From NCBI RefSeq assembly GCF_016508255.1, contig NZ_JADVKT010000014.1:1-33908 (forward strand): a DNA stretch of 33,908 bases. Direction: 5' to 3'. Positions 7,074 to 27,801 of this stretch are shown here, piece after piece; position 1 is the stretch's first letter, and each line of letters begins with the position of its first letter. This DNA is from Acinetobacter calcoaceticus (GTDB lineage Bacteria; Pseudomonadota; Gammaproteobacteria; Pseudomonadales; Moraxellaceae). A program made the translations under genes and the position numbers. The notes under the pieces were generated by a model. That model worked only from the letters and a program-made list of their open reading frames with translations. It was not told the DNA's origin and searched no databases.

Positions 7074-8432
7074 TTAGTCTGCTGTGTTGTTCATTAAGTT
7101 CAGCATGGCAGAAATTTTATCAAGGCTTTCTTGATATTCTGCTTCTGCATTTGAGGCAATCGTAATACCACCGCCTGCCCATAAAGAGAGCTGATTTTGA
7201 TATTGTTGAAAGCTGCGGATAAGAATATTCCAGCGGCCAGTTCCATCAAAATTGAAGTAACCTAATGTCCCGCAATAAGCACCTCTTGCTTCTTCTTCTA
7301 ATTCTTCAATAATTTGCATTGCCCGAATTTTTGGGGCACCTGTAATTGATCCCCCCGGTAAGGCAGAGAGCAACATTTGCATCGGGTTAATATCATCTTT
7401 AAGTGTCGCAATAATTTCACTGACCATGTGATGAACTTGATTAAAACTTTCAATCTCGAATAATTGTGTTGTTTTTACCGACCCGGTATTGGCATAAATG
7501 CTCAAATCATTACGTAATAAATCAACAATCATGACATTCTCTGCCTGATCTTTTTGCGAGTTTTTTAAAGTTTGTTTTGAAATAAAATCTTTTTCGATAT
7601 TCTCATATCGAGGCATAGTTCCCTTAATAGGTCGGGTCTTAATTTGTTTATTTTGATTGAATTCAATGAAGAGTTCAGGGGAACAACTTAATAACTCAAA
7701 TTGATCTAATTTTAAATAACCTGCATATGGTGCATTAGTAAGGCTCCATAAATCTGATGCTTTATTTAATAAAGACCCTTTGAAATCAGCTTTAAATTCT
7801 TGGGTTAAATTAATTTGATAACAATCCCCAGCTTTAATATATTCTTGTATTTTGTTAAAAGCCTCAAAATATTGTTGTTTAGACCATCTTGGTTGAATAG
7901 TAGTTTTTAATTCAAATATATTTTTAGATTTATTAAGAATAGAGCACTTTAATTTTTTCTCAATGTATTTGAATAGATCGAGTGCATCTGTTTCATCACT
8001 AAAAAAATACCAATCATTATTAATGTATTTTAAAAAAGAACGATATTGACCTAAGAATAAAGATGGTTGCATATGATTTTGAACGTTAATAAATTGATGT
8101 GCAGCGAAATCATAACTAATGAAACCAATATAGCCGCCATTAAAACTTGTTATCGATTCAATATTTTTATTTTCTTCTAAGTTATTTTCTTTAAGTTGAA
8201 TAAAATCTAATAATTGATTCGATTTTGATGTATTTTTATATTCATTAAAAAAATGACGCTGAAAAACTAAATTACTCTTATCTTGAATAAGTATGTATTG
8301 TTGAGGCAGAAAACCAATAATGGGATTGTTATTATCATTTAAATAAATGAGCCCAGTTAATTCTTGTAGATTTTTTAAAATCTCGGCAGTATTTTTACCG
8401 GGTAATGAGATTTTTTTCTTTAACTGAGACAT
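7074..8432 (-). CDS. pabB: Aminodeoxychorismate synthase component I PabB
   Basis: Chorismate-using enzyme that, with PabA, makes 4-amino-4-deoxychorismate for folate. 452 residues. The Lys in RPIKGTMPR is diagnostic of PabB; anthranilate synthase TrpE normally has Ala at this place (PIAGT). Other chorismate-binding signatures are AENVMIVDLLRNDLS, PGGSITGAPKIRAMQIIEELE read in parts, and GGGITIASNAEAEYQE near the C-terminus. The N-terminal third is poorly conserved, very rich in Asn, Lys and AT-ending codons compared with nearby genes. It faces hisC tail to tail, and its start faces the fil cluster. Confidence 0.93.
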   Translation of the reverse strand: MSQLKKKISLPGKNTAEILKNLQELTGLIYLNDNNNPIIGFLPQQYILIQDKSNLVFQRHFFNEYKNTSKSNQLLDFIQLKENNLEENKNIESITSFNGGYIGFISYDFAAHQFINVQNHMQPSLFLGQYRSFLKYINNDWYFFSDETDALDLFKYIEKKLKCSILNKSKNIFELKTTIQPRWSKQQYFEAFNKIQEYIKAGDCYQINLTQEFKADFKGSLLNKASDLWSLTNAPYAGYLKLDQFELLSCSPELFIEFNQNKQIKTRPIKGTMPRYENIEKDFISKQTLKNSQKDQAENVMIVDLLRNDLSIYANTGSVKTTQLFEIESFNQVHHMVSEIIATLKDDINPMQMLLSALPGGSITGAPKIRAMQIIEELEEEARGAYCGTLGYFNFDGTGRWNILIRSFQQYQNQLSLWAGGGITIASNAEAEYQESLDKISAMLNLMNNTAD

Positions 8433-8787
8433 TTTTAAATAAGAGAGTAACTAATAAGGGAAATATTAGTTTACTACAACTTGTGGATCATCAGGGAGAA
8501 GACTTGTGGTGGAGGTATTTTTTGTTGATAAAACATTCAAATTTTAGTGGGGGATCGAGTTGTATTTGGAAGTTAAAAGCGGAATAAATTGACTGTACCG
8601 TTTGTCGGGTAGTTGGCAAAAAATGCACAACACTAGTTGAACAAAAAGTAACGTAGATGTAATTTAGTAATTGCTAAGCAAAACTACTCAAGGATTGGAA
8701 GTTTCGGTTGCTATATAAAGAAAAATGCAATTTGAGACAATGAGAGTGGTTAAATTCAAAAAATAAATGCTCTTGGGAGAGTGCTCA
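8433..8787. other. Intergenic region between pabB and filA
   Basis: About 355 bp between divergent starts, expected to hold both promoters. An imperfect dyad at 8665-8686 has TTGCT (8671-8675) and AGCAA (8677-8681) around one A, flanked by TAGT and ACTA; it could be an operator for filA. TG at 8709-8710 before TATATA (8712-8717) is a possible extended -10 for filA, without a good -35. A 60-codon open frame at 8405-8587 overlaps pabB antisense, has no recognisable features and is not called. Confidence 0.35.
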
Positions 8788-9639
8788 ATGAAAATGTTCA
8801 CTAAACTTGCTTTAGTTTCTTCTTTAGCTATCAGTGCAAATGCAATGGCAATGCAGTCAATGGACGATGCTGCGCTTAGTGCTGCTACAGGTCAAGATGG
8901 TATTAACATTGGTATCGCTTTAGGTTCTGGCGGTATTTCTATCGATAAATTATATATTCATGACAATGATGGTTTAAACCCTACCACAGGAATTACGGGT
9001 GCTGCAGCAACTGCGGGTGCAATTGCAGTAAGTGGAGTAACTGTTAAACAAGTGGATACAACAACGAACCTGTTAGATCTTAAAATTGATAGCGTTGGTG
9101 CGTCAGGTACAAATGGAGCATTTTTAAACGTTGCTGCAAATGTAGGCGCTGTTGATGTACATGTAGGTTCTGTAGGTGTTGGTACTTCTGGTACATTAAA
9201 TACGACGACTGCTGTACGTGGGATTACTGAAACCGCTCCAACTGAGATTATCTCTGGTCTAGATTTATCTTTAGGCGCAATTTCAGCGAATGTACAATTA
9301 GGTTCTACTCCACAAGGTGCAATGATTAAAGTGAATTCAGCTTTAAAAGGGGGATTAACTTTATCTAACTTCGGCATTAATGATGCTGCAGGGGGCGGTA
9401 AAATTGTTCTTGATAAAGTTATGGTTCGTGGCGCGGGTAATACAACTGGTGACATGGATGTAAACGCGAATATTTCAGTTGTACCAACTGGTTTGAAAAT
9501 CCAGAATAATAGCACTCAAGGTATGAATGTTTATGTACAAGGTGTACATTTAGGCGCTAGTACTGCGGCTTCAATTGGTGATGTTGAAATCCAAGGTTTA
9601 AATGTAGGTACTTCTACAATTACAATTTCTGGTCATTAA
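8788..9639 (+). CDS. filA: Secreted repetitive protein FilA (putative pilus/surface protein)
   Basis: 283 residues from ATG 8788, which has GGGAG upstream; the ATG at 8767 is in frame but gives no signal peptide at its start. Residues 1-19 (MKMFTKLALVSSLAISANA) form a Sec signal peptide. Next comes SMDDAALSAATGQDG (24-38), a motif seen near the start of several gammaproteobacterial secreted proteins. The rest is Gly/Val/Ala/Asn-rich, with alternating short hydrophobic strands (LLDLKIDSV, GAVDVHVGSVGVG, GLTLSNFGIND) suggesting a beta-solenoid-like fold. There is no Cys. Acinetobacter annotations call this FilA, a putative pilus-assembly protein; it is not a classical pilin, having neither a type IV prepilin motif nor a chaperone-usher pattern. 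A terminator follows. Confidence 0.8.
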   Translation: MKMFTKLALVSSLAISANAMAMQSMDDAALSAATGQDGINIGIALGSGGISIDKLYIHDNDGLNPTTGITGAAATAGAIAVSGVTVKQVDTTTNLLDLKIDSVGASGTNGAFLNVAANVGAVDVHVGSVGVGTSGTLNTTTAVRGITETAPTEIISGLDLSLGAISANVQLGSTPQGAMIKVNSALKGGLTLSNFGINDAAGGGKIVLDKVMVRGAGNTTGDMDVNANISVVPTGLKIQNNSTQGMNVYVQGVHLGASTAASIGDVEIQGLNVGTSTITISGH

Positions 9640-9951
9640 TTCAAAAAATTTAAAATAAAAAAGGCGCGTTTTATACGCGCTTTTTTTATTGAATAAAAAT
9701 TGAATTAATTTTATATAGTTGTTTAATATAAATTATTATATGAATAATAAATGTATTAGAAGTGGCAATATTTAAAAATGAGAGTTAATTAACAGTTTAA
9801 TTAAAGTAGAACTATACATTCATCAAAAAGATTAAAAAAAAGCTGTTTTTTACAGAAAAAAAAGGTATCTTCAACACACAGGGATGTAGAGCTATTGCTC
9901 TAAGAATAAAATGAATAAGGCCAGTTGTGCCACCATTTAGAACAAGTGCTT
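9640..9951. other. Intergenic region between filA and filB
   Basis: After the filA terminator (9664-9687) there is about 260 bp of very AT-rich DNA that could hold a promoter for filB-F, though no single -35/-10 pair stands out. A small hairpin AGAGC (9888-9892) / GCTCT (9897-9901) sits just before an ATG at 9911. That ATG opens a 9-codon frame (MNKASCATI, then TAG) one base out of register with filB. Confidence 0.4.
9664..9687 (+). terminator. Rho-independent terminator after filA
   Basis: Stem GCGCGT (9664-9669) / ACGCGC (9675-9680), 5-nt loop, preceded by an A run and followed by T7. It is likely to cut filA off from filB-F or to reduce read-through. Confidence 0.9.
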
Positions 9952-10785
9952 ATGTTAGAGATTGCTTTAGGCTCAGCATTGATATATTACTTTGCGACAG
10001 AAGCCTTCGAAATAGAAAAAAAGCCACCAGGAACTGTGTATTACACAGAGACTGCCGATTCACGTAATTTATCTTTTCGCCGTAATCATATTGAACCCGT
10101 TAGGATTAAACCCGCTGTAGAAGACCAGTTTCGCGGCATCGTTCGGCAGGCATATGACTATAGCTGTGGTTCCGCCGCGCTTACTACACTTTTAAATGGT
10201 TATGTGGGTACTAGTCTGACTGAACAGCAGACGATGAGTGGCTTGCTACAGTATGGTGAATATCAGCGGATTATTGAGCGTCGAAGCTTCTCGTTACTTG
10301 ATATGAAGCGCTTTGTGACTGCTATCGGTTTGGATAGTGGGGGGTATCGTGGCGAGTTTTCAGATTTAGTCAATCTTAGACAGCCTGCAATTGTTCCAAT
10401 TTCTTATGCTGGATTTAAGCATTTTGTCGTATATAAAGCTTATAAAGATGGACGAGTCTATGTTGCTGATCCTGCATTAGGGAATATCAGTTTTGATGAA
10501 AATCGTTTTAAAGAAGTTTGGGATAATAATACATTATTTGTAATTTCCGTCCCTGAAGCTCAGCGTAAAGATTTACTGGCTTTAAAAGATTCAGATATGC
10601 GTCATGTGGAAGATGCAACTGTTAACCGTTATGCCTTTGTGGATGTTCAATATCCCACATTTAATTATGACCGTTTAGCAAATAAAGCTTCAACCATGCG
10701 AAGGGTGCTAGATAAAGACCCACATTCTGCAACATATAATCAGCCAATAGAAACTTATATGCGTCTCTACTATAAGCGTAAATAA
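9952..10785 (+). CDS. filB: FilB, papain-like C39-family cysteine peptidase
   Basis: 277 residues from ATG 9952. The peptidase C39 fold is clear: catalytic Cys72 in AYDYSCGSAALTTLL, His157 in GFKHFVVYKAY and Asp173 in VYVADPALG (numbering from this ATG). C39 domains usually cleave double-glycine leaders, often fused to ABC exporters; this one stands alone. The gene sits between secreted FilA and outer-membrane FilC, so a periplasmic site is expected. The start is uncertain: the 9952 product has a hydrophobic N-terminus (LEIALGSALIYYF) without positive charge, and TTG 9925 with AAGG upstream would add nine residues. Acinetobacter annotations use the name FilB. Confidence 0.75.
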   Translation: MLEIALGSALIYYFATEAFEIEKKPPGTVYYTETADSRNLSFRRNHIEPVRIKPAVEDQFRGIVRQAYDYSCGSAALTTLLNGYVGTSLTEQQTMSGLLQYGEYQRIIERRSFSLLDMKRFVTAIGLDSGGYRGEFSDLVNLRQPAIVPISYAGFKHFVVYKAYKDGRVYVADPALGNISFDENRFKEVWDNNTLFVISVPEAQRKDLLALKDSDMRHVEDATVNRYAFVDVQYPTFNYDRLANKASTMRRVLDKDPHSATYNQPIETYMRLYYKRK

Positions 10786-10830
10786 TCAAATGTAAATTGA
10801 GTAAAATAAATATATTAGGTGGGAAGAAAC

Positions 10831-12021
10831 ATGAATAATCGATGGATGAATATGAGTGTATTGGCATTAAGTATGAGTGCTATTACAGGGACACTCTATG
10901 CTGATGATCAAGTTGCACAAACAGAAGTACAAAATACTGCGCTTGCATCTGGAGTCAGTACGACTCCGGAAGTAACAGCAAAAACAAATTCAGTTCAAGA
11001 CGGGGGAACAGTTTCGACTACAGAAGCTGTATCTACTGAATCTGCTCCTGCATCAGCGAATCCAGAAGTACACCAAGCTGCTAATGCCTTACAGAAAAAA
11101 GAAGGCGATGCGACACAAGAGACAAATTTACAAGAAGTATTCACATCAAATGAACGTCAATATTCTTTGATTAAACGAGGTGTATTTTCTGCTTATTACG
11201 ATCTTGATTATACCTATTATCGTGATACCAAAATTGATTTAGCTTTAGCAGACAATTCCTCTCAACTGAACCGTTTACGTGTTGAAGAAGATGCTAACCA
11301 TACTTTGACAAATAGTTTTACGGTCCAGTATGGGATCTTGGACAACTTAACTTTATCAGCAACTCTTCCTTTTGTTGCAAAGTCTGAAATTATTCGTAAT
11401 ACGACTACTGCTGGGTTGGGGGATATTTCTCTTGGCGCTCGCTGGGAACCCTTTCCATTGAAACAAGGTCGATTGCCATTGGTGCTTTTTGGTAGTTTAT
11501 CGTCTAAGACCGGCGATAGCCCATATGAAATTGGCTTAGATGAACTTTCAACAGGTAAAGGTTATTACTCTGCTGGGATCGGGGCTAGTACTCGTAAATA
11601 CATTGATCCAGTGGTTTTATTTGCCTCGGCTTCTGCTAATTATGGTTTCAAAGAAACTGGTTTAAATCAAGCGCGTGGTGCTGGGGCTAACGGTCCACGT
11701 TATCTTCAGAGCTTTGATCCTGGGATTAGTGGTGGTTTTGCTTTCGGTTTTGCTTATTCATTTAACTATGATGTGTCATTAACCATGTCATATCAGCAAA
11801 GTTTTAATACAAATGCTGAGTTCCAGTTTAATAATGGTGAATCATATAAATCACCAGACCAAAGTAGTGCAATGTTGTCTTTTGCTTTAGGTGTACGTGT
11901 TTCACCTGAAACGATTGTCAATGGTACGGTTGGTATTGGCTTAACCCAAGATTCACCAGATGTTTCACTTGGTCTATCTTTCCCGCTAGATTTTATAGGT
12001 TTTGGCAAAAAAACCAAATAA
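10831..12021 (+). CDS. filC: FilC, outer-membrane beta-barrel protein
   Basis: 396 residues. ATG 10831 is preferred to GTG 10819 because GGTGGGAAG precedes it correctly. The signal peptide is residues 1-24 (MNNRWMNMSVLALSMSAITG plus TLYA). A low-complexity Thr/Ser/Glu/Ala linker fills about 25-105, then a barrel from about 110: YSLIKRGVFSAYYDLDYTYY, TNSFTVQYGILDNLTLSATLPF, GLGDISLGARW, all alternating amphipathic strands with aromatic girdles. The pattern resembles 'transporter'/MetA-like outer-membrane barrels. It lies 45 bp after filB and 6 bp before filD. A role as export pore or anchor is inference from context. Confidence 0.72.
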   Translation: MNNRWMNMSVLALSMSAITGTLYADDQVAQTEVQNTALASGVSTTPEVTAKTNSVQDGGTVSTTEAVSTESAPASANPEVHQAANALQKKEGDATQETNLQEVFTSNERQYSLIKRGVFSAYYDLDYTYYRDTKIDLALADNSSQLNRLRVEEDANHTLTNSFTVQYGILDNLTLSATLPFVAKSEIIRNTTTAGLGDISLGARWEPFPLKQGRLPLVLFGSLSSKTGDSPYEIGLDELSTGKGYYSAGIGASTRKYIDPVVLFASASANYGFKETGLNQARGAGANGPRYLQSFDPGISGGFAFGFAYSFNYDVSLTMSYQQSFNTNAEFQFNNGESYKSPDQSSAMLSFALGVRVSPETIVNGTVGIGLTQDSPDVSLGLSFPLDFIGFGKKTK

Positions 12022-12027
12022 GGAGAT

Positions 12028-13698
12028 ATGCAGGTGAAATATCCTAAATTATGTCCTTTAACGGCGGCAATTGTTATTTCTGGTGTTTCTAGCTTTGCCA
12101 ATGCTCAATTAGGACAAAACTTAGCAGTTGATATTCGTTCACTATCGATGGGGAATGCTGTAACGGCAGATCCGCCTGGTATTAGTGCAGTTCATTTTAA
12201 CCCCGCAGCTTTAGCGAAAATTGATGGGTTACAGACAGATGTTCAAGGAATTTTAGCTAATTTCGATATTCAGCGTGAGTATTCAGCACCTCCTGGTTAT
12301 AACGTGTTTGGTTATTCAGATGATCCCCTTGTTTGTAATGATGGTCCTGAAGTTACCGCCAATATTTGTACCGATTTTAAGGGTCCTGTACGAGGGGATG
12401 TTGAATACGCCAGCTTATATATACCAATTCTTAAAAAAATGGTTGATTTGGGAGCTGGTTATCCACTGGTTGCACCTACAGCCGGAATTGCCTATAAGCC
12501 ACCAGGTTCAAAAGTAACTTATGCGACAGCAATTTATGCACCTTTAATTGCAGGTTTTGGTGCTGAAAATGGTAATGCTAGCAACTATATGGGGCAGCAG
12601 GTTGCTATAGAGCGTATTACTTATTTGTCTCCATCTTTTGGCTATCAGGTAAATGATCATTTATCTGTGGGTGCATCTGTTGGCATGTCATATAACGCTC
12701 TCGCGATGAAAACAGATTTGCGATTCCCCAATGAGATGATTGGGGTATTGCGTATGGTTGATGACGTAGTATGTGGGCCGTTTAAAGACAATAACGATAT
12801 GATTAGCAATCTATTGTTATTTGGCCTATGTAATACTCAAGAAGGTATGAATCCCTTCAATAAAATGGGATCACTTCAAGTTTCGATGGAGCAGTCTTTA
12901 AGTCCTAGTTATAACTTAGGCTTGCTGTGGGAGCCGACGGAGGATTTTGGCTTTGGTATGGTCTATCAAAGTGCTGCCAAAATGCGTATGAAAGGGAAGT
13001 ACCTGATTAATAATGCTAAAGCACCTCAAGAGTTAATTAAGGGATTAAACTCATCAGCCACAGGTCAGGTTCTAGCAGCTATTCTTGGTCTACCGGGGAA
13101 TGTACCAGATACTGAGTCTGGTTTAGTCGCAATGGATCTTGAATATCCAGCACATTTTCAGGCAGGTATTAAATATAAAATAATACCCGATTTACAAGTT
13201 AACTTTGATGTAGGCTGGACTGACTATGCTGCGTGGAATAAGTTTAAATTTGAATTTGATAGACAGATTACTTTATTAAAGGTTGCCAAACTTTTATCAA
13301 ATGATGTTACTGATAACTCATTGTCATTACCATTGAAATTTACTTCCCCATGGAGTTGGGGTATTGGTTTAGAGTATTCCGCAACGGATCGTTTGAAATT
13401 GCGCGCTGGGTATGAGCCTCGTACTAGCGCTATTCCCAATGATAAACGTAATACAATGATTCCAATTAATAATGCGCAATTATTTGGCTTAGGTGTTGGA
13501 TACCGATTTGATGCAGATACAGATCTGGATCTTTCGATTGGTTTTTTACGCAGTCGAGATAATATTCCCGCCTGTACGAGTAGCCTATCGAACAAGTGTG
13601 GTGTTGATAATATCCTGCTAAATCCTTATGCAGGCTTAGATGTTAAAACCAATACCAAAATTACAGTGCTCGGTTTAAATTATAGAACAAAATGGTAA
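12028..13698 (+). CDS. filD: FilD, FadL/OmpP1-family outer-membrane protein
   Basis: 556 residues, with AGGAG at 12021-12025 ahead of the ATG. Signal peptide about 1-26 (ending SSFANA). The mature start QLGQNLAVDIRSLSMGNA and HFNPAALAKIDGLQ matches the FadL/OmpP1 hatch region, where the NPAAL motif is typical. Beta strands run to the end, finishing with the aromatic-terminated VLGLNYRTKW used for barrel insertion. Six or more Cys residues occur in pairs (VCNDGPEVTANIC, IPACTSSLSNKC), suggesting loop disulfides. Most FadL relatives move hydrophobic molecules, and lipid or substrate export in this cluster is possible. Its stop overlaps filE by 7 bp. Confidence 0.78.
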   Translation: MQVKYPKLCPLTAAIVISGVSSFANAQLGQNLAVDIRSLSMGNAVTADPPGISAVHFNPAALAKIDGLQTDVQGILANFDIQREYSAPPGYNVFGYSDDPLVCNDGPEVTANICTDFKGPVRGDVEYASLYIPILKKMVDLGAGYPLVAPTAGIAYKPPGSKVTYATAIYAPLIAGFGAENGNASNYMGQQVAIERITYLSPSFGYQVNDHLSVGASVGMSYNALAMKTDLRFPNEMIGVLRMVDDVVCGPFKDNNDMISNLLLFGLCNTQEGMNPFNKMGSLQVSMEQSLSPSYNLGLLWEPTEDFGFGMVYQSAAKMRMKGKYLINNAKAPQELIKGLNSSATGQVLAAILGLPGNVPDTESGLVAMDLEYPAHFQAGIKYKIIPDLQVNFDVGWTDYAAWNKFKFEFDRQITLLKVAKLLSNDVTDNSLSLPLKFTSPWSWGIGLEYSATDRLKLRAGYEPRTSAIPNDKRNTMIPINNAQLFGLGVGYRFDADTDLDLSIGFLRSRDNIPACTSSLSNKCGVDNILLNPYAGLDVKTNTKITVLGLNYRTKW

Positions 13699-15008
13699 AT
13701 TTATATTGCGAACGGATGTCTTGGTCTAGACTTGCTATTGCGACGTTTTGTGTTGCAATAGCAGCTAACTCTGCTGTTTATGCAGATGGTTTCTATACGA
13801 TTATTGGGCCAGATGGTCGCCCAATGATTGTGCCGAGCAAAAAAGTAGAACGGGTAACATCCCCCTCTAAAGTATTAACTCGTCCAGATGTAAAGGTAGA
13901 TCATTCAGAAGAAATGGTTTTACCTGAAGCAACTCAAAAATTAACACCATTGCCTAAAACAGTTTCAAAATCGTCTAATACTGCATCAACTGCATCAACT
14001 GCATCAACTGCATCAACTGCATCAACTGCATCAACTGCATCAACTGCATCAACTGCATCAACTGCATCAACTGCATCAACTGCATCAACTGCATCAACTG
14101 CATCAACGAAAACTCAATCTACCGTTCCAGCACAGACAAAAAGAGGTACAGAAAAAGCAGAAGCTGTTGAGCAAAAGTCTAGTTTGGGTGGTAGTAAAGA
14201 AAAAATAATGATCAAGGATTCTGCTCTCAAACAAGCAGCCGAAGAAAAAGTAAAGTCAAATCCAGTTCCATCCTCGACTAAGGGTATGGTTACTTCATCA
14301 GTACCAACACAAAAAAAGGATGAGAAGAATTACATTACAATTGACGGTGTTGAATACGTTAATAATGAGTACTTAGAGAAACAAGAATTTAACCTTGAAG
14401 GTAAAAAACGTTTTTATATTATGCCGGATGGCTTAGGGCGTACGGAATCTATTGAACGTAAAAAAGGTGTCAGTCAGTCAATTCTTGATAATATATTAAA
14501 TCGATCACGAGAAGATCAAGTCTCTACTGTCGTGCTGGCTCCTACTTATCTGCGTTTGTCACATCAAGAGTTGGCGAGTACTTTTGAGAATGATATGTGC
14601 TTTATTAAAGACGATAATAAGTCAATTAAAAAATTAAGCCAGAATAAAGAAATTGGTTTATGGCCAAGAAAACCGCTCAAAGAGAAATTTGAATACGAAG
14701 TTGTAAAAATAGATTCATCTATTAAGAATATACAGGTGGCATCTTATGCTGCATCCAATGAGAAGCCAGTCTATTATTGGCCACTCGCAGTCTTTTTAGA
14801 TGAAAAGGGTTGTGTTTTAGAAGGCGCAAGTGGTTTTAAGAGTAAGGCATATCCTGCGACAATTTTACAACATGCATCGATTTCAGGTGTCTTACAAGTA
14901 CCTGACCATACTTATTATATTATGTTGACGCCTCTATCTTCTGCTGTGGACATGCCAGATCAAGAGTTATCGAATCAGGGACAAATTAAAATTTCAGTAT
15001 TACGTTAA
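13692..15008 (+). CDS. filE: FilE, secreted protein with (Thr-Ala-Ser)14 repeat
   Basis: 438 residues from ATG 13692, which overlaps the filD stop (ATGGTAA), implying coupled translation; ATG 13716 would give a shorter signal peptide. The signal ends near NSAVYA. DGFYTIIGPDGRPMIVPSKK follows and resembles the short DUF4124-type domain found in many secreted proteins. A 14-copy TAS tract comes next (about residues 97-138), then a Lys-rich linker and a globular C-terminal region (about 195-438) with strands and a Cys pair (NDMCFIKDD, KGCVLEG). I recognise no catalytic motif. A periplasmic or surface scaffold role is inferred only from the cluster. Confidence 0.7.
   Translation: MVNLYCERMSWSRLAIATFCVAIAANSAVYADGFYTIIGPDGRPMIVPSKKVERVTSPSKVLTRPDVKVDHSEEMVLPEATQKLTPLPKTVSKSSNTASTASTASTASTASTASTASTASTASTASTASTASTASTASTKTQSTVPAQTKRGTEKAEAVEQKSSLGGSKEKIMIKDSALKQAAEEKVKSNPVPSSTKGMVTSSVPTQKKDEKNYITIDGVEYVNNEYLEKQEFNLEGKKRFYIMPDGLGRTESIERKKGVSQSILDNILNRSREDQVSTVVLAPTYLRLSHQELASTFENDMCFIKDDNKSIKKLSQNKEIGLWPRKPLKEKFEYEVVKIDSSIKNIQVASYAASNEKPVYYWPLAVFLDEKGCVLEGASGFKSKAYPATILQHASISGVLQVPDHTYYIMLTPLSSAVDMPDQELSNQGQIKISVLR
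13980..14105 (+). repeat. 9-bp tandem repeat, 14 copies, in filE
   Basis: Unit ACTGCATCA, 14 exact copies encoding Thr-Ala-Ser. Because the unit is a multiple of three, copy-number change alters linker length without shifting frame. The copies are identical at the DNA level, a sign of recent slippage expansion. Confidence 0.97.
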
Positions 15009-15024
15009 AAATAAAATAGGGATT

Positions 15025-17031
15025 ATGATGAGTAACAAAATTTTATTACCTTTTGCAGTCTCCACACTGGCAATTTTATTAAATGGTTGCGGTGGTGGTA
15101 GTTCAACCATTAACGAAGATCCTACACAAGGAGGAGGTGATATTCCAACCACTAATTTAGCTTGTAAAGCAGCTAGCATTTCAGATGAGTCTTGTTTGAA
15201 CTTTGAACTAGATTATCCAATTGCTGGCCTAAATTTTGATTGTAGTTTATCTCCTAATCAGCATTACATTACAAAACTAGATCGTAACTCGGTTGGAGGT
15301 GCATGTGGTATTAGTAGCAGTCAGTCAGATGAAACGATATCACTTTATTTACAAGGAAGTAATGCACGTAAAATCTCTTTAGGAACGATAAAGCTTGATT
15401 CACTTGGTAAGTATGGGACTGTACATTTAACTGTATTAGATATGGCTACCGCATTAACGGGTCAACCCCCAGCTTCCATGAGTAATACTGATCCAACGAT
15501 TCGAGTTGCAATGGCTTTAATTAAGTTATTTCAGAGTATTGGTATTGAACGTGGCGATAATGTGATTGGGGATTTACAGCCAACCCAATTTACACAAGAT
15601 AAGAAAGACTTACTGAGCAGTTTGACCCAGGATGTAACTGTAGCTGAATGGAAAAGTGGTCAATATGAAACCATCTTAAAACCTTGGTTAGATGTAAGCC
15701 AAGTTTCTGATGAGCAAGCTTACCAATTACTGGTTCAATCAACAAATATCGCTAATGCTGCATTATATCAAGCAAATGAAGCATTATATGCCGGAATTAA
15801 TAATCTGCCAGCAGCTCTTCCACTGGGTTTCTATGGTTGTAATCAGACCTCTTTAACTGGGTGCTTTAGTACCTCTTCAAATAATTTACGTCATATGATG
15901 GGCAACATGTTCTTGCTTACAGACCGCCAAGGCTATGGTTTTGGTTACGGTTTACAATGGCGGGGGGATGCAACTCTTTCCAAAGATGATAAAGGTAATA
16001 TTTTAGGGGTATTACCAGCCATTATTTTATTAACCAAATCAAAACCTGTACAGATGGTTGCCTCAGCACAGAATGGATGGTTGAGTCCAATTACCATGGA
16101 AATTCAGTCTAGTCAGCCACTACGTTTAAGTGTGGACAGTAATGCGAATAATGATTTACAGATTTATCAAGGTAAACTCATTAATGAATATGCTGTAGCT
16201 GGGAACGAAGGTTTTTATAAACAGTTAACACGCACAACTACTGCTGGAAATGCACAACATTATGGTTTGTGGCGTCAAGCGGTGGGTACGGAAAGCTATA
16301 ATGGTTCTTTAGATATTTTAAAAGCAAATCCAGTAAGTTATTTAGGAAAATCTATTTTTAAAACATCGAAAAATGTGAGTTCTGGCCAGCGTTATGTTTT
16401 CCCCTTGTATGCAACTTTAAGTTTTAAGTTTAATACAGCAGGAATTGCTCCAATGGATTTGGGCATTGTAGTTGATGAGTATGGTGATATTCGTACAGAT
16501 ATTAAGCCAAATGCAACTGACACTGATAAATCTGGTCAATGTGCAACAGTCGCAGATAGCAGTCTGATTGATAGTAATGGTATTCAACAATATCGGATCG
16601 GGACTACAGGCGGTACACAATCTTCAGATAATGATAGTTCGATTACAGTTCGCATGATTTTATCAAATCCTCAGTTAGGTAATCTTAATGGGATTATGAT
16701 GGGACTTAATACTGTAGTGAAACAGGACTCGAATATATCGGATAATGTAAATGATTCGATTTCAGTGAGTGGTGCTAAAATTAATATTTACAATCTACTA
16801 GCTGGCCAAAATACAGGTAATAGTATTAATTTGAGTACTTTTGAAAATACGACAGTAAATTGGGTTAACTTATACGCTTATTATCAAGCTGTTTATAATA
16901 ATATTAAGGATATTAGTCCGGCACCAACTGATGCTGAAAAAGCTTTAGCTCAACGCATGATGGGTACCGTAACAATTAAACTAGCGGATCAATCTATTCC
17001 AGCTTGTAATGCGATTAAAACTAAGTCTTAA
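15025..17031 (+). CDS. filF: FilF, large lipoprotein of the fil cluster
   Basis: 668 residues. The N-terminus MMSNKILLPFAVSTLAILLN ends in lipobox LNGC with Cys22, followed by GGGSS, so a lipidated protein is predicted. The residues after Cys (GGG) give no inner-membrane retention signal, consistent with the outer membrane. About ten further Cys occur (NLACKAA, DESCLNFE, NFDCSLS, GGACGIS, YGCNQTSLTGCF, SGQCAT, IPACNA). Beta-rich segments and a mid-region with Gly/Tyr/Asn-rich turns (GYGFGYGLQW) are visible. FilF is described in Acinetobacter as a putative pilus-assembly protein and immunogenic outer-membrane antigen. No enzymatic motif is seen. It is the last gene of the cluster and ends before a bidirectional terminator. 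Confidence 0.75.
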   Translation: MMSNKILLPFAVSTLAILLNGCGGGSSTINEDPTQGGGDIPTTNLACKAASISDESCLNFELDYPIAGLNFDCSLSPNQHYITKLDRNSVGGACGISSSQSDETISLYLQGSNARKISLGTIKLDSLGKYGTVHLTVLDMATALTGQPPASMSNTDPTIRVAMALIKLFQSIGIERGDNVIGDLQPTQFTQDKKDLLSSLTQDVTVAEWKSGQYETILKPWLDVSQVSDEQAYQLLVQSTNIANAALYQANEALYAGINNLPAALPLGFYGCNQTSLTGCFSTSSNNLRHMMGNMFLLTDRQGYGFGYGLQWRGDATLSKDDKGNILGVLPAIILLTKSKPVQMVASAQNGWLSPITMEIQSSQPLRLSVDSNANNDLQIYQGKLINEYAVAGNEGFYKQLTRTTTAGNAQHYGLWRQAVGTESYNGSLDILKANPVSYLGKSIFKTSKNVSSGQRYVFPLYATLSFKFNTAGIAPMDLGIVVDEYGDIRTDIKPNATDTDKSGQCATVADSSLIDSNGIQQYRIGTTGGTQSSDNDSSITVRMILSNPQLGNLNGIMMGLNTVVKQDSNISDNVNDSISVSGAKINIYNLLAGQNTGNSINLSTFENTTVNWVNLYAYYQAVYNNIKDISPAPTDAEKALAQRMMGTVTIKLADQSIPACNAIKTKS

Positions 17032-25791: not shown

Positions 25792-27801
25792 ATGTCTCAT
25801 AAAACACTTAGCAGCTTAGTCGCTGTATTTGGTCTATTGGTTTCACCATGGACTCTGGCAGCAATTAAGGAATATCACCTGAATATTAATGAACAACAGG
25901 TGAATATTACTGGTCAACCGCTAAAGCGAATTACCGTAAATGGAAAGTTTACAGCACCTCTCCTTGAGTTTGAGGAAGGGGATGAAGCTGTTATTCATGT
26001 TCATAATCAATTAAAAAATCAGGATACATCTTTGCATTGGCATGGGTTATTGTTGCCGGGGTTAATGGATGGCGTACCGGGTTTTAATAATTTTAAAGGA
26101 ATCGCGCCAAACGGAGATTTTGTTTACCGCTTTAAGGTGAAACAAAACGGCACCTATTGGTATCACGCACATAGTAAAGGCCAAGAGCAAGACGGCTTAT
26201 ATGGTCCGCTTGTGATTTATCCTAAAGGAAAAGTTCCGGTTGCAGCTCATGAAAAAACTGACCGTGATTACGTGGTGATGCTGTCTGATTTTCATAATTC
26301 TTCTAGCGATAGCATTATGAAGAATTTGAAAAAATCTGCTGAGTATTATCAAAACCGTCGTGAAACCGTATCTGACGTTTGGAAACAAGTTAAAACGCAA
26401 GGCTTAAAAGCAACTTGGCAAGATCGTTCGATGTGGAACCAGATGCGAATGTTAAAAACCGATATGTCCGATGTGACTGGTTATACTTTCTTAGTGAATG
26501 GGAAAACGCCACAGCAAAACTGGACAGGTGATTTTAAGGCAGGCGATAAAGTTCGATTACGATTTATTAATGCATCTGCAATGTCATTTTTTGATGTCCG
26601 AATTCCAAATTTGAAAATGACAGTCGTGAGTGCAGATGGGCAGCCAGTAAAACCTGTTGCAATTGATGAGTTTCGTATTGGTACAGCCGAAACCTATGAT
26701 GTAATTGTTGAACCTAAACAGCCAAACTATCAGATTGAAGCAGAGTCTATTGACCGTAGTGGTTTTGCTATCGGTACTTTGCATGATGAAAATACTCAAG
26801 CGGTTGGTCCAATTAAAATGCCAAAGCCACGTCCGCGCTCTTTATTGACCATGGATGATATGGGCATGAATCATGGTGATGGGGGCGGTGATGAACATGC
26901 TAGCCATCAAATGAATATGAGCCATGACATGTCGGTGATGTCGGAAATGAAAAAAGAGCCGAGCCATGCTAATCATGATCATGCAATGATGAACATGGAC
27001 CATGACATGAAAAATATGTCATCTGGCCAACAAGATCACTCCATGATGCAAATGAAGCACGACATGTCAACAATGCCTGAAATGAAGCATGATATGCAGG
27101 CAATGCCGTCTAGTGAACAGGACCATTCAATGATGGGAATGAAGCATGATATGTCTGCTATGCCTAAGATGAAGGCAATGCCGTCTAGCGAGCAGGACCA
27201 TTCTATGATGCAGATGAATCATGAAATGCCAGCTCAATCTGAGAGTACCAATAAAAAAGATAAGCCAGTTTATGGCTGGGCAAATGCTTCGACACCTGTT
27301 GGTATGAAAGCGTTGCAGTATAGTGATTTGCAGTCTTTAACCCCTCAACCAGATACACGTGCGCCAGAACGAGAGTTAGTCATTCGATTAGGTGGCAATA
27401 TGGAGCGTTATATCTGGACCATTAATGGCAAGAAGTTTAGCGAAGCTGAACCATTACAGGTTAAATATGGCGAACGTATTCGCTTGAAGTTTGTGAATGA
27501 CAGCATGATGGCGCATCCAATGCATTTACACGGCATGTTTATGCAATTAGAAAATGGTCAGCAAGCAGAAAACTTACCAAATAAACATACCGTTATTGTT
27601 CCGCCAGGAAAGACAGTTACTGCGTTATTGACAGCCGATGCATTAGGCGAGTGGGCGATTCATTGTCATCTGCTTTATCACATGAGTGCAGGTATGATGA
27701 ATAAGTTGATTGTGGCTCAAGTGAATGATGGACAATCTACTCAATCTCAAGCACCTGTTCAATCTGATGATGAGAAAGGAGCTAGTCATGCGCATCACTA
27801 A
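25792..27801 (+). CDS. copA: Multicopper oxidase CopA (PcoA-like) with Met/His-rich domain
   Basis: 669 residues. The copper ligands are all visible: SLHWHGLLLPG near 82, YWYHAHSKGQEQDGLYGP near 124, HPMHLHGMF near 574 and WAIHCHLLYHMSAGMM near 623. These make the T1 site and T2/T3 cluster used to oxidise Cu(I) in the periplasm. Residues about 353-480 are a Met/His domain of MxMxHDM-type repeats. The signal peptide (MSHKTLSSLVAVFGLLVSPW) has no twin arginine, unlike most CopA/PcoA/CueO proteins, so Sec export is predicted. AAAGGA precedes the ATG. copB starts inside its 3' end. Confidence 0.93.
   Translation: MSHKTLSSLVAVFGLLVSPWTLAAIKEYHLNINEQQVNITGQPLKRITVNGKFTAPLLEFEEGDEAVIHVHNQLKNQDTSLHWHGLLLPGLMDGVPGFNNFKGIAPNGDFVYRFKVKQNGTYWYHAHSKGQEQDGLYGPLVIYPKGKVPVAAHEKTDRDYVVMLSDFHNSSSDSIMKNLKKSAEYYQNRRETVSDVWKQVKTQGLKATWQDRSMWNQMRMLKTDMSDVTGYTFLVNGKTPQQNWTGDFKAGDKVRLRFINASAMSFFDVRIPNLKMTVVSADGQPVKPVAIDEFRIGTAETYDVIVEPKQPNYQIEAESIDRSGFAIGTLHDENTQAVGPIKMPKPRPRSLLTMDDMGMNHGDGGGDEHASHQMNMSHDMSVMSEMKKEPSHANHDHAMMNMDHDMKNMSSGQQDHSMMQMKHDMSTMPEMKHDMQAMPSSEQDHSMMGMKHDMSAMPKMKAMPSSEQDHSMMQMNHEMPAQSESTNKKDKPVYGWANASTPVGMKALQYSDLQSLTPQPDTRAPERELVIRLGGNMERYIWTINGKKFSEAEPLQVKYGERIRLKFVNDSMMAHPMHLHGMFMQLENGQQAENLPNKHTVIVPPGKTVTALLTADALGEWAIHCHLLYHMSAGMMNKLIVAQVNDGQSTQSQAPVQSDDEKGASHAHH
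27011..27213 (+). repeat. Degenerate 75-bp repeats in the copA Met-rich region
   Basis: Two near-identical blocks begin at 27099 and 27174 (GGCAATGCCGTCTAG start, 75 bp = 25 codons apart), and a more diverged copy precedes them near 27011. They encode Met/His copper-binding blocks ending in DHSMM. In-frame expansion or loss would change the number of metal sites. Confidence 0.75.

Follow-up and report, generated by a model that had tools for sequence, protein, structure and literature searches.

The window analyzed here is a stretch of 33,908 nucleotides from Acinetobacter calcoaceticus (contig NZ_JADVKT010000014.1), in which six consecutive genes on the + strand, filA to filF, fill positions 8788-17031. 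This fil cluster most likely encodes a system that secretes a pilus and other surface proteins and that has a core of the FapD/FapF type, named for the peptidase and pore of Fap amyloid secretion in Pseudomonas. In the proposed mechanism, FilA would leave the cytoplasm by the Sec route and be cleaved by signal peptidase, and periplasmic FilB would then recognize a double-glycine-like leader in the DUF6160 region just behind the signal peptide and cut after its Gly-Gln. Mature FilA would exit through the FapF-like barrel FilC and polymerize outside into a thin, curved fiber, with FilD, FilE, and FilF as accessory components, and other DUF6160 proteins of varied size, often remotely encoded, would share the FilB/FilC route. 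The pilus name already looks right, and the apparent novelty lies in how assembly works, in the leader of the substrates, and in the secretome; no link of Fil to Fap, to DUF6160, or to a leader was found in the open-licence literature searched.

The core of the argument is the relationship of FilB and FilC to the Fap system. An earlier sequence-only reading had listed six consecutive fil genes, including a stand-alone C39 peptidase and two outer-membrane barrels, and these descriptions are borne out, with each of the six proteins scoring above the cut-off of its own NCBIfam Fil model. FilB (9952..10785, + strand) is a C39 peptidase with an N-terminal hydrophobic anchor (Peptidase_C39, 3.6e-16), and its catalytic Cys, His, and Asp, together with the oxyanion Gln, are invariant in 11/11 aligned FilB rows. 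The protein matches the FapD model at 4.9e-32 (111 bits, below the curated cut-off of 330) and some ABC-exporter models solely through their C39 part; the named ones among its best 120 matches are from Acinetobacter, at 94 to 96% identity. FilC (10831..12021, + strand) has no Pfam match at E <= 1, but matches the FapF model at 8.2e-14 (51 bits, below the curated cut-off of 700) and the FapF crystal sequence at 2.1e-7, and in a profile comparison 10 FilC rows and 7 FapF-type proteins aligned across 283 columns (99.9% probability, E 4.5e-35). FapF also has an N-terminal trimer coiled coil; on the FilC side, the profile match begins at residue 105. Judged by these alignments, FilB is a homologue of FapD and FilC one of FapF; FilB would be the enzyme that makes the cut and FilC the pore.

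Such a core might be taken for a plain Fap functional-amyloid system in which FilA forms cross-beta amyloid like FapC, and the long, curved shape of the deduced Fil fibers (PMC3498257) would suit that explanation, which is nonetheless quite unlikely. FapD and FapF were the only Fap models matched by the six Fil proteins, a count to be read with the proviso that the presence of FapA, FapB, and FapC models in the library was not checked; the FapE model, which is present, was unmatched by all six at E <= 1. FilA is predicted by AlphaFold2 (AF2) to adopt a beta-rich fold (predicted local distance difference test score, pLDDT, 84; predicted template modeling score, pTM, 0.70), and the related solved filament discussed below is called pilus-like. 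A tree built from 38 C39 proteins split 26 FilB sequences and a sister pair from genomes G017 and G059 from 10 FapD-type peptidases with support of 100/100; the pair was split from the 26 FilB sequences with support of only 87/69, the tool warning of long branches. Eight genomes carry both FilB-type and FapD-type peptidases, so Fil is best regarded as a paralogous system and not as Fap under another name. The two share a stand-alone C39 peptidase, a FapF-type barrel, and a double-glycine-like leader, which at Fap-type loci is carried by the protein encoded next to the peptidase. Fil differs from Fap in carrying its leader on the fiber subunit and on a wide set of proteins, in ending that leader with Gly-Gln, in the absence of a FapE match among the six proteins, and in its additional FadL barrel, FilE, and FilF.

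The second line of evidence is the leader itself. FilA (8788..9639, + strand; NCBIfam pilus_FilA, 1.5e-99), the putative secreted pilus subunit, opens with a probable Sec-type signal peptide at residues 1-21 (8788..8850), read from a hydrophobic stretch ending Ala-Met-Ala, and continues with a double-glycine-like leader at residues 22-36 (8851..8895) that ends Gly-Gln, with the proposed cut after position 8895. The N-terminal region of the protein corresponds to DUF6160 (PF19657, 2.4e-9). Across 129 distinct DUF6160 rows, gathered with a profile of the same motif, the conserved block sits right behind the Sec signal and is hydrophobic at -15, -12, and -7 relative to the proposed cut. Position -12 is M, L, I, V, or F in 99% of 119 rows and position -7 is L or M in 100% of 121, position -4 is hydrophobic in 69% of 124 (Ala in the window's own FilA), and position -2 is Gly in 97% of 127. 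Hydrophobic residues at -12, -7, and -4 with Gly at -2 are the features of a double-glycine leader, as found in DUF6160 proteins; at -1, where such leaders have Gly, Ala, or Ser, 88% of 124 rows have Gln instead, and one protein of locus L158 has Gly. In a C39 structure described in PMC6363468, the leader is bound through Val-4, Leu-7, and Leu-12 in a hydrophobic groove and is helical from -4 to -11, and the AF2 model of FilA makes residues 24-35 a helix, at low to middling confidence, followed by strands. By its residue pattern, then, the DUF6160 motif has the same register as the double-glycine leaders of C39 peptidases. The same register of -12, -7, and -4 and the C39 domain are shared with the PCAT/AMS C39 peptidase-ABC exporters of bacteriocins, from which Fil differs in having no ABC transporter in the cluster, in the presumed periplasmic location of both peptidase and substrate, and in Gln at P1.

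That unusual Gln at P1, along with the predicted leader helix, would also fit a FilB that binds the leader without cutting it, as a chaperone or targeting signal in the manner of the C39-like domains of some type I systems, so that signal peptidase alone would make the mature end. This is unlikely given the invariant catalytic Cys, His, and Asp in the 11 aligned rows and the solved filament 9xfv, which by its numbering lacks residues 1-37, the span of signal and leader together. Cleavage by FilB remains the preferred reading. Leaders were also sought at the loci of FapD-type peptidases. Eleven such regions (L060-L070) were examined, and in the eight with a readable neighbor protein (all but L065, L067, and L068) the protein beside the FapD-type gene has a leader, ending Gly-Gly in six, Gly-Arg in one, and Gly-Lys in one; a strict leader pattern found three of the eight and the rest were recognized by eye. 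The FapE model matched two of four of these leader proteins, weakly and at the model start. The scanned FapD-type and FapF-type proteins of these regions score below the curated cut-offs, and the sample is therefore one without true Fap operons. A score matrix built solely from these eight FapE-like leaders and run over the first 200 residues of each protein placed its best window at the Gly-Gln site in 105/122 DUF6160 proteins; of the 17 misses, at least three come down to this site having been overlooked by the search pattern. The matrix scores are modest, exceeding the 99th percentile of shuffles in 29/122 DUF6160 proteins versus 4/483 other Fil proteins. One of the regions, L066, contains a direct duplication (7524-11970) of a block made up of one small gene, one gene each of the FapD and FapE-like types, and one that resembles a subunit gene.

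The nature of the exported product is indicated by two filaments. In Acinetobacter sp. Tol 5, "Fil fimbriae" were deduced, with FilA as the component that was identified, its band having been assigned by Edman degradation, and the long, curved fibers were described as covering cells grown on triacylglycerol (PMC3498257). Tol 5 fibers have been seen by electron microscopy, and the passages on them in PMC3498257 and PMC11784438 give no assembly mechanism; the likeness to the window's FilA is one of name within the same genus. Pseudomonas FilA proteins match the Protein Data Bank entry 9xfv, a karst cave filament described as "bacteria pilus (like)" and titled "Pilus-like-alpha," at 3.1e-8 and 2.3e-7, and at 5.9e-14 by profile, with homology over the N- and C-terminal parts. 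The 9xfv chain is numbered 38-210 and starts at the residue that directly follows Gly-Gln in the DUF6160 motif, and its C-terminal end resembles the motif ending Ser-Gly-His that is common to FilA-type proteins and lies at 9571..9636 in the window's filA. This comparison rests on title, sequence alignment, and numbering; the window's FilA is larger than 9xfv, and neither it alone nor the profile A2 gave a sequence match to 9xfv, so that the link runs through Pseudomonas FilA. No paper on 9xfv was found in the open-licence literature searched.

These filaments also revise what had been said of the cluster as a whole. The absence of a chaperone, usher, or assembly ATPase holds: usher and chaperone Pfam domains are missing from the six proteins at E <= 1, and neither a type IV pilin N-terminal helix nor an assembly ATPase is matched in them by Pfam or NCBIfam, the ABC-type matches of FilB covering its C39 part only. 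The label "putative pilus system" in the database would suit a chaperone-usher or type IV pilus with its missing parts elsewhere in the genome, but such a pilus is very improbable, since no such domain occurs in the six proteins (the search covered these and not the remainder of the genome) and the conserved partners are FapD/FapF-like proteins. As for the missing pilin signature, Pseudomonas relatives of FilA match a solved pilus-like filament. Likewise, the idea of an outer-membrane display machine of a different kind survives as a dedicated outer-membrane export and display system, but its contrast with a pilus does not, in view of the Tol 5 fimbriae and the homology to 9xfv. It is the means of assembly that is unusual, and not what is assembled.

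Co-occurrence of fil and DUF6160 genes in other genera, which the sequence-only reading had proposed as a check, extends far outside close strains. Two samples were used, 293 genomes of the order and 229 of the class, with G001 and G036 in both, and orthologue thresholds were set by eye at score gaps (FilB, E <= 1e-77; FilD, E <= 1e-145). In the order sample, FilB matched 65 genomes at E <= 0.001 and 36 at the orthologue threshold, the other 29 lying at 4.9e-51 or worse and including FapD-type and ABC-type peptidases. FilD orthologues occur in 37/293 genomes, namely the 36 with FilB and the incomplete G003, with the next FilD-like group starting at 6.6e-128. DUF6160 was found in 39/293 (38 over the cut-off), in all 36 FilB genomes versus 3/257 others, so that 36 genomes are common to the three sets. 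The three others are G003 (75% complete, FilD present, no FilB orthologue), G017 (a sister of FilB matched at 4.9e-51, and FilD without an orthologue), and G058 (one match at 5.6e-5, no FilB orthologue). In the class sample, DUF6160 occurs in 5/229 genomes and FilB at E <= 1.4e-62 in exactly those five (5/5 vs 0/224; next best 8e-38), of which only three are new because G001 and G036 are shared with the order sample; one of the three, G302, falls under the DUF6160 cut-off. The corresponding Fisher values of 5e-43 and 2e-10 overstate independence, as the counts are uncorrected for shared ancestry.

Gene order is conserved over the same range. Among 80 named loci, filBCDE is contiguous on one strand with gaps of <=129 bases in 75, the five without it being L102 and four at contig ends (L085, L096, L105, and L147). 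A FilA-type gene lies upstream in 46 of the 80. In 26 a filF-like gene comes next, and these 26 all belong to the section of the list with Alcanivoracaceae, Moraxellaceae, and unplaced bacteria. Carriers of fil include Alcanivorax, Marinobacter, Pseudomonas (with P. aeruginosa PA7), Oleispira, Bermanella, Hahella, and Kistimonas. One FilB copy (L019, genome G232) has a single internal stop codon.

The remaining three proteins fit the earlier description of a FadL-like barrel, a secreted repeat-linker protein, and a Cys-rich lipoprotein. FilD (12028..13698, + strand) belongs to the FadL/OmpP1 transporter family (FadL/Toluene_X; PF03349, 1.3e-62). FilE (13692..15008, + strand) is predicted to be secreted and has a C-terminal FilE_C domain (PF22881, 2.6e-72) and a Ser-Thr-Ala linker encoded by 14.2 perfect copies of a 9-bp tandem array (13980..14107). 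No tandem array other than this one in filE was found, so the claim that FilA is repetitive was not upheld. Compared with the window's FilE, that of the nearest genome lacks 21 residues in length, as if the array length varied. The FilE profile aligns with proteins in the same locus position elsewhere, one of which carries DUF4124 and MalM domains. FilF (15025..17031, + strand; NCBIfam pilus_FilF, 7.4e-243) has a lipobox Cys and four further Cys that are invariant or nearly so in 36 aligned rows, and its AF2 model is confident (mean pLDDT 86), with a fold not assigned to a known one. At L047 (5665-10290) and L053 (4523-7384), proteins of 1541 and 953 residues lie between filD and the filE-like gene, followed downstream by a protein of 1032 to 1093 residues; the 953-residue protein has no Pfam match at E <= 0.1.

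A FadL-family barrel in the cluster raises the alternative of a locus for hydrophobic-substrate uptake, in which FilD takes up lipid or hydrocarbon, while FilA and FilF bind lipid at the cell surface and merely look fibrous. Many of the named carriers are Alcanivorax, Marinobacter, or Oleispira, genera with a hydrocarbon habit. The growth of the fiber-covered Tol 5 cells on triacylglycerol (PMC3498257) points the same way. Little probability is given to this alternative, considering that Pseudomonas FilA matches a filament subunit and that FilD appears not to be needed, because G430, G302, G017, and G059 have FilB and FilC homologues without a FilD orthologue (absent in G430, G017, and G059; a single weak match at 2.8e-5 in G302). 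G501 does have FilD (2.1e-140). In the secretion system favored here, FilD, FilE, and FilF would therefore be accessory, since distant relatives have FilB, FilC, and leader proteins with no FilD orthologue. As a guess, FilF may anchor or cap the fiber, and FilD and FilE may serve a channel or lipid-related task.

DUF6160 matches number up to 10 per genome in the order sample and 15 in G430. Many are encoded far from fil, and their bodies are very different, from about 105 to about 2060 residues. In the nearest genome, G001, five leader-bearing genes, three of them above the DUF6160 cut-off, stand in a row (L171, 5570-13481) ~130 kb from fil. Rows of three or four leader-bearing genes occur in other genomes (L172-L175, L178, and L197), and G430 and G302 have many leader-bearing proteins of about 105 to 140 residues, some in tandem (L194, L195, L196, and L201). 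The remote proteins are presumably secreted by the same route as FilA, and on that proposal the leader would define a secretome.

Several features of the locus concern gene calls and expression. The start of filB is probably the ATG at 9952, and for filC the ATG at 10831 is likelier than the GTG at 10819. A gap of ~310 bases separates filA from filBCDEF and holds a hairpin with a T-run (9664..9687, + strand), read from the sequence as a likely terminator or attenuator; a terminator scan listed the stem downstream of filA on the - strand and found 8 terminator-like sites versus 5.3 expected. The spacer and hairpin would fit a subunit produced in large amounts, with weaker expression of the machinery genes behind it. 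Upstream of filA, the window has a gene that looks pabB-like by eye and that adjoins the fil locus in several other families, and a multicopper-oxidase-like protein with a long Met/His-rich stretch, also judged by eye, is encoded at 25792-27801.

Taken more broadly, Fil is, somewhat more likely than not, a pathway of its own for pilus biogenesis and general secretion in Gram-negative bacteria, combining Sec export, periplasmic leader sorting, C39 maturation, and Fap-type barrel export with folded, non-amyloid pili and a secretome that is defined by the leader and comprises as many as 15 proteins per genome. The leader finding bears on Fap as well, because periplasmic, peptidase-active FapD is needed for Fap secretion and its target was left unclear, with FapE suspected (PMC5557850). 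The same leader logic would name FapE-like proteins as that target, and a leader common to FapE-like and DUF6160 proteins makes the question testable. If the proposed mechanism is true, a pilus with no usher, motor, or pilin peptidase gains an assembly route, DUF6160 gains a function as an export leader, and the solved environmental filament 9xfv gains a candidate gene cluster. The sequence alone would then suffice to predict the secretome in Acinetobacter, in Pseudomonas, and in marine bacteria, Alcanivorax and Marinobacter among them.

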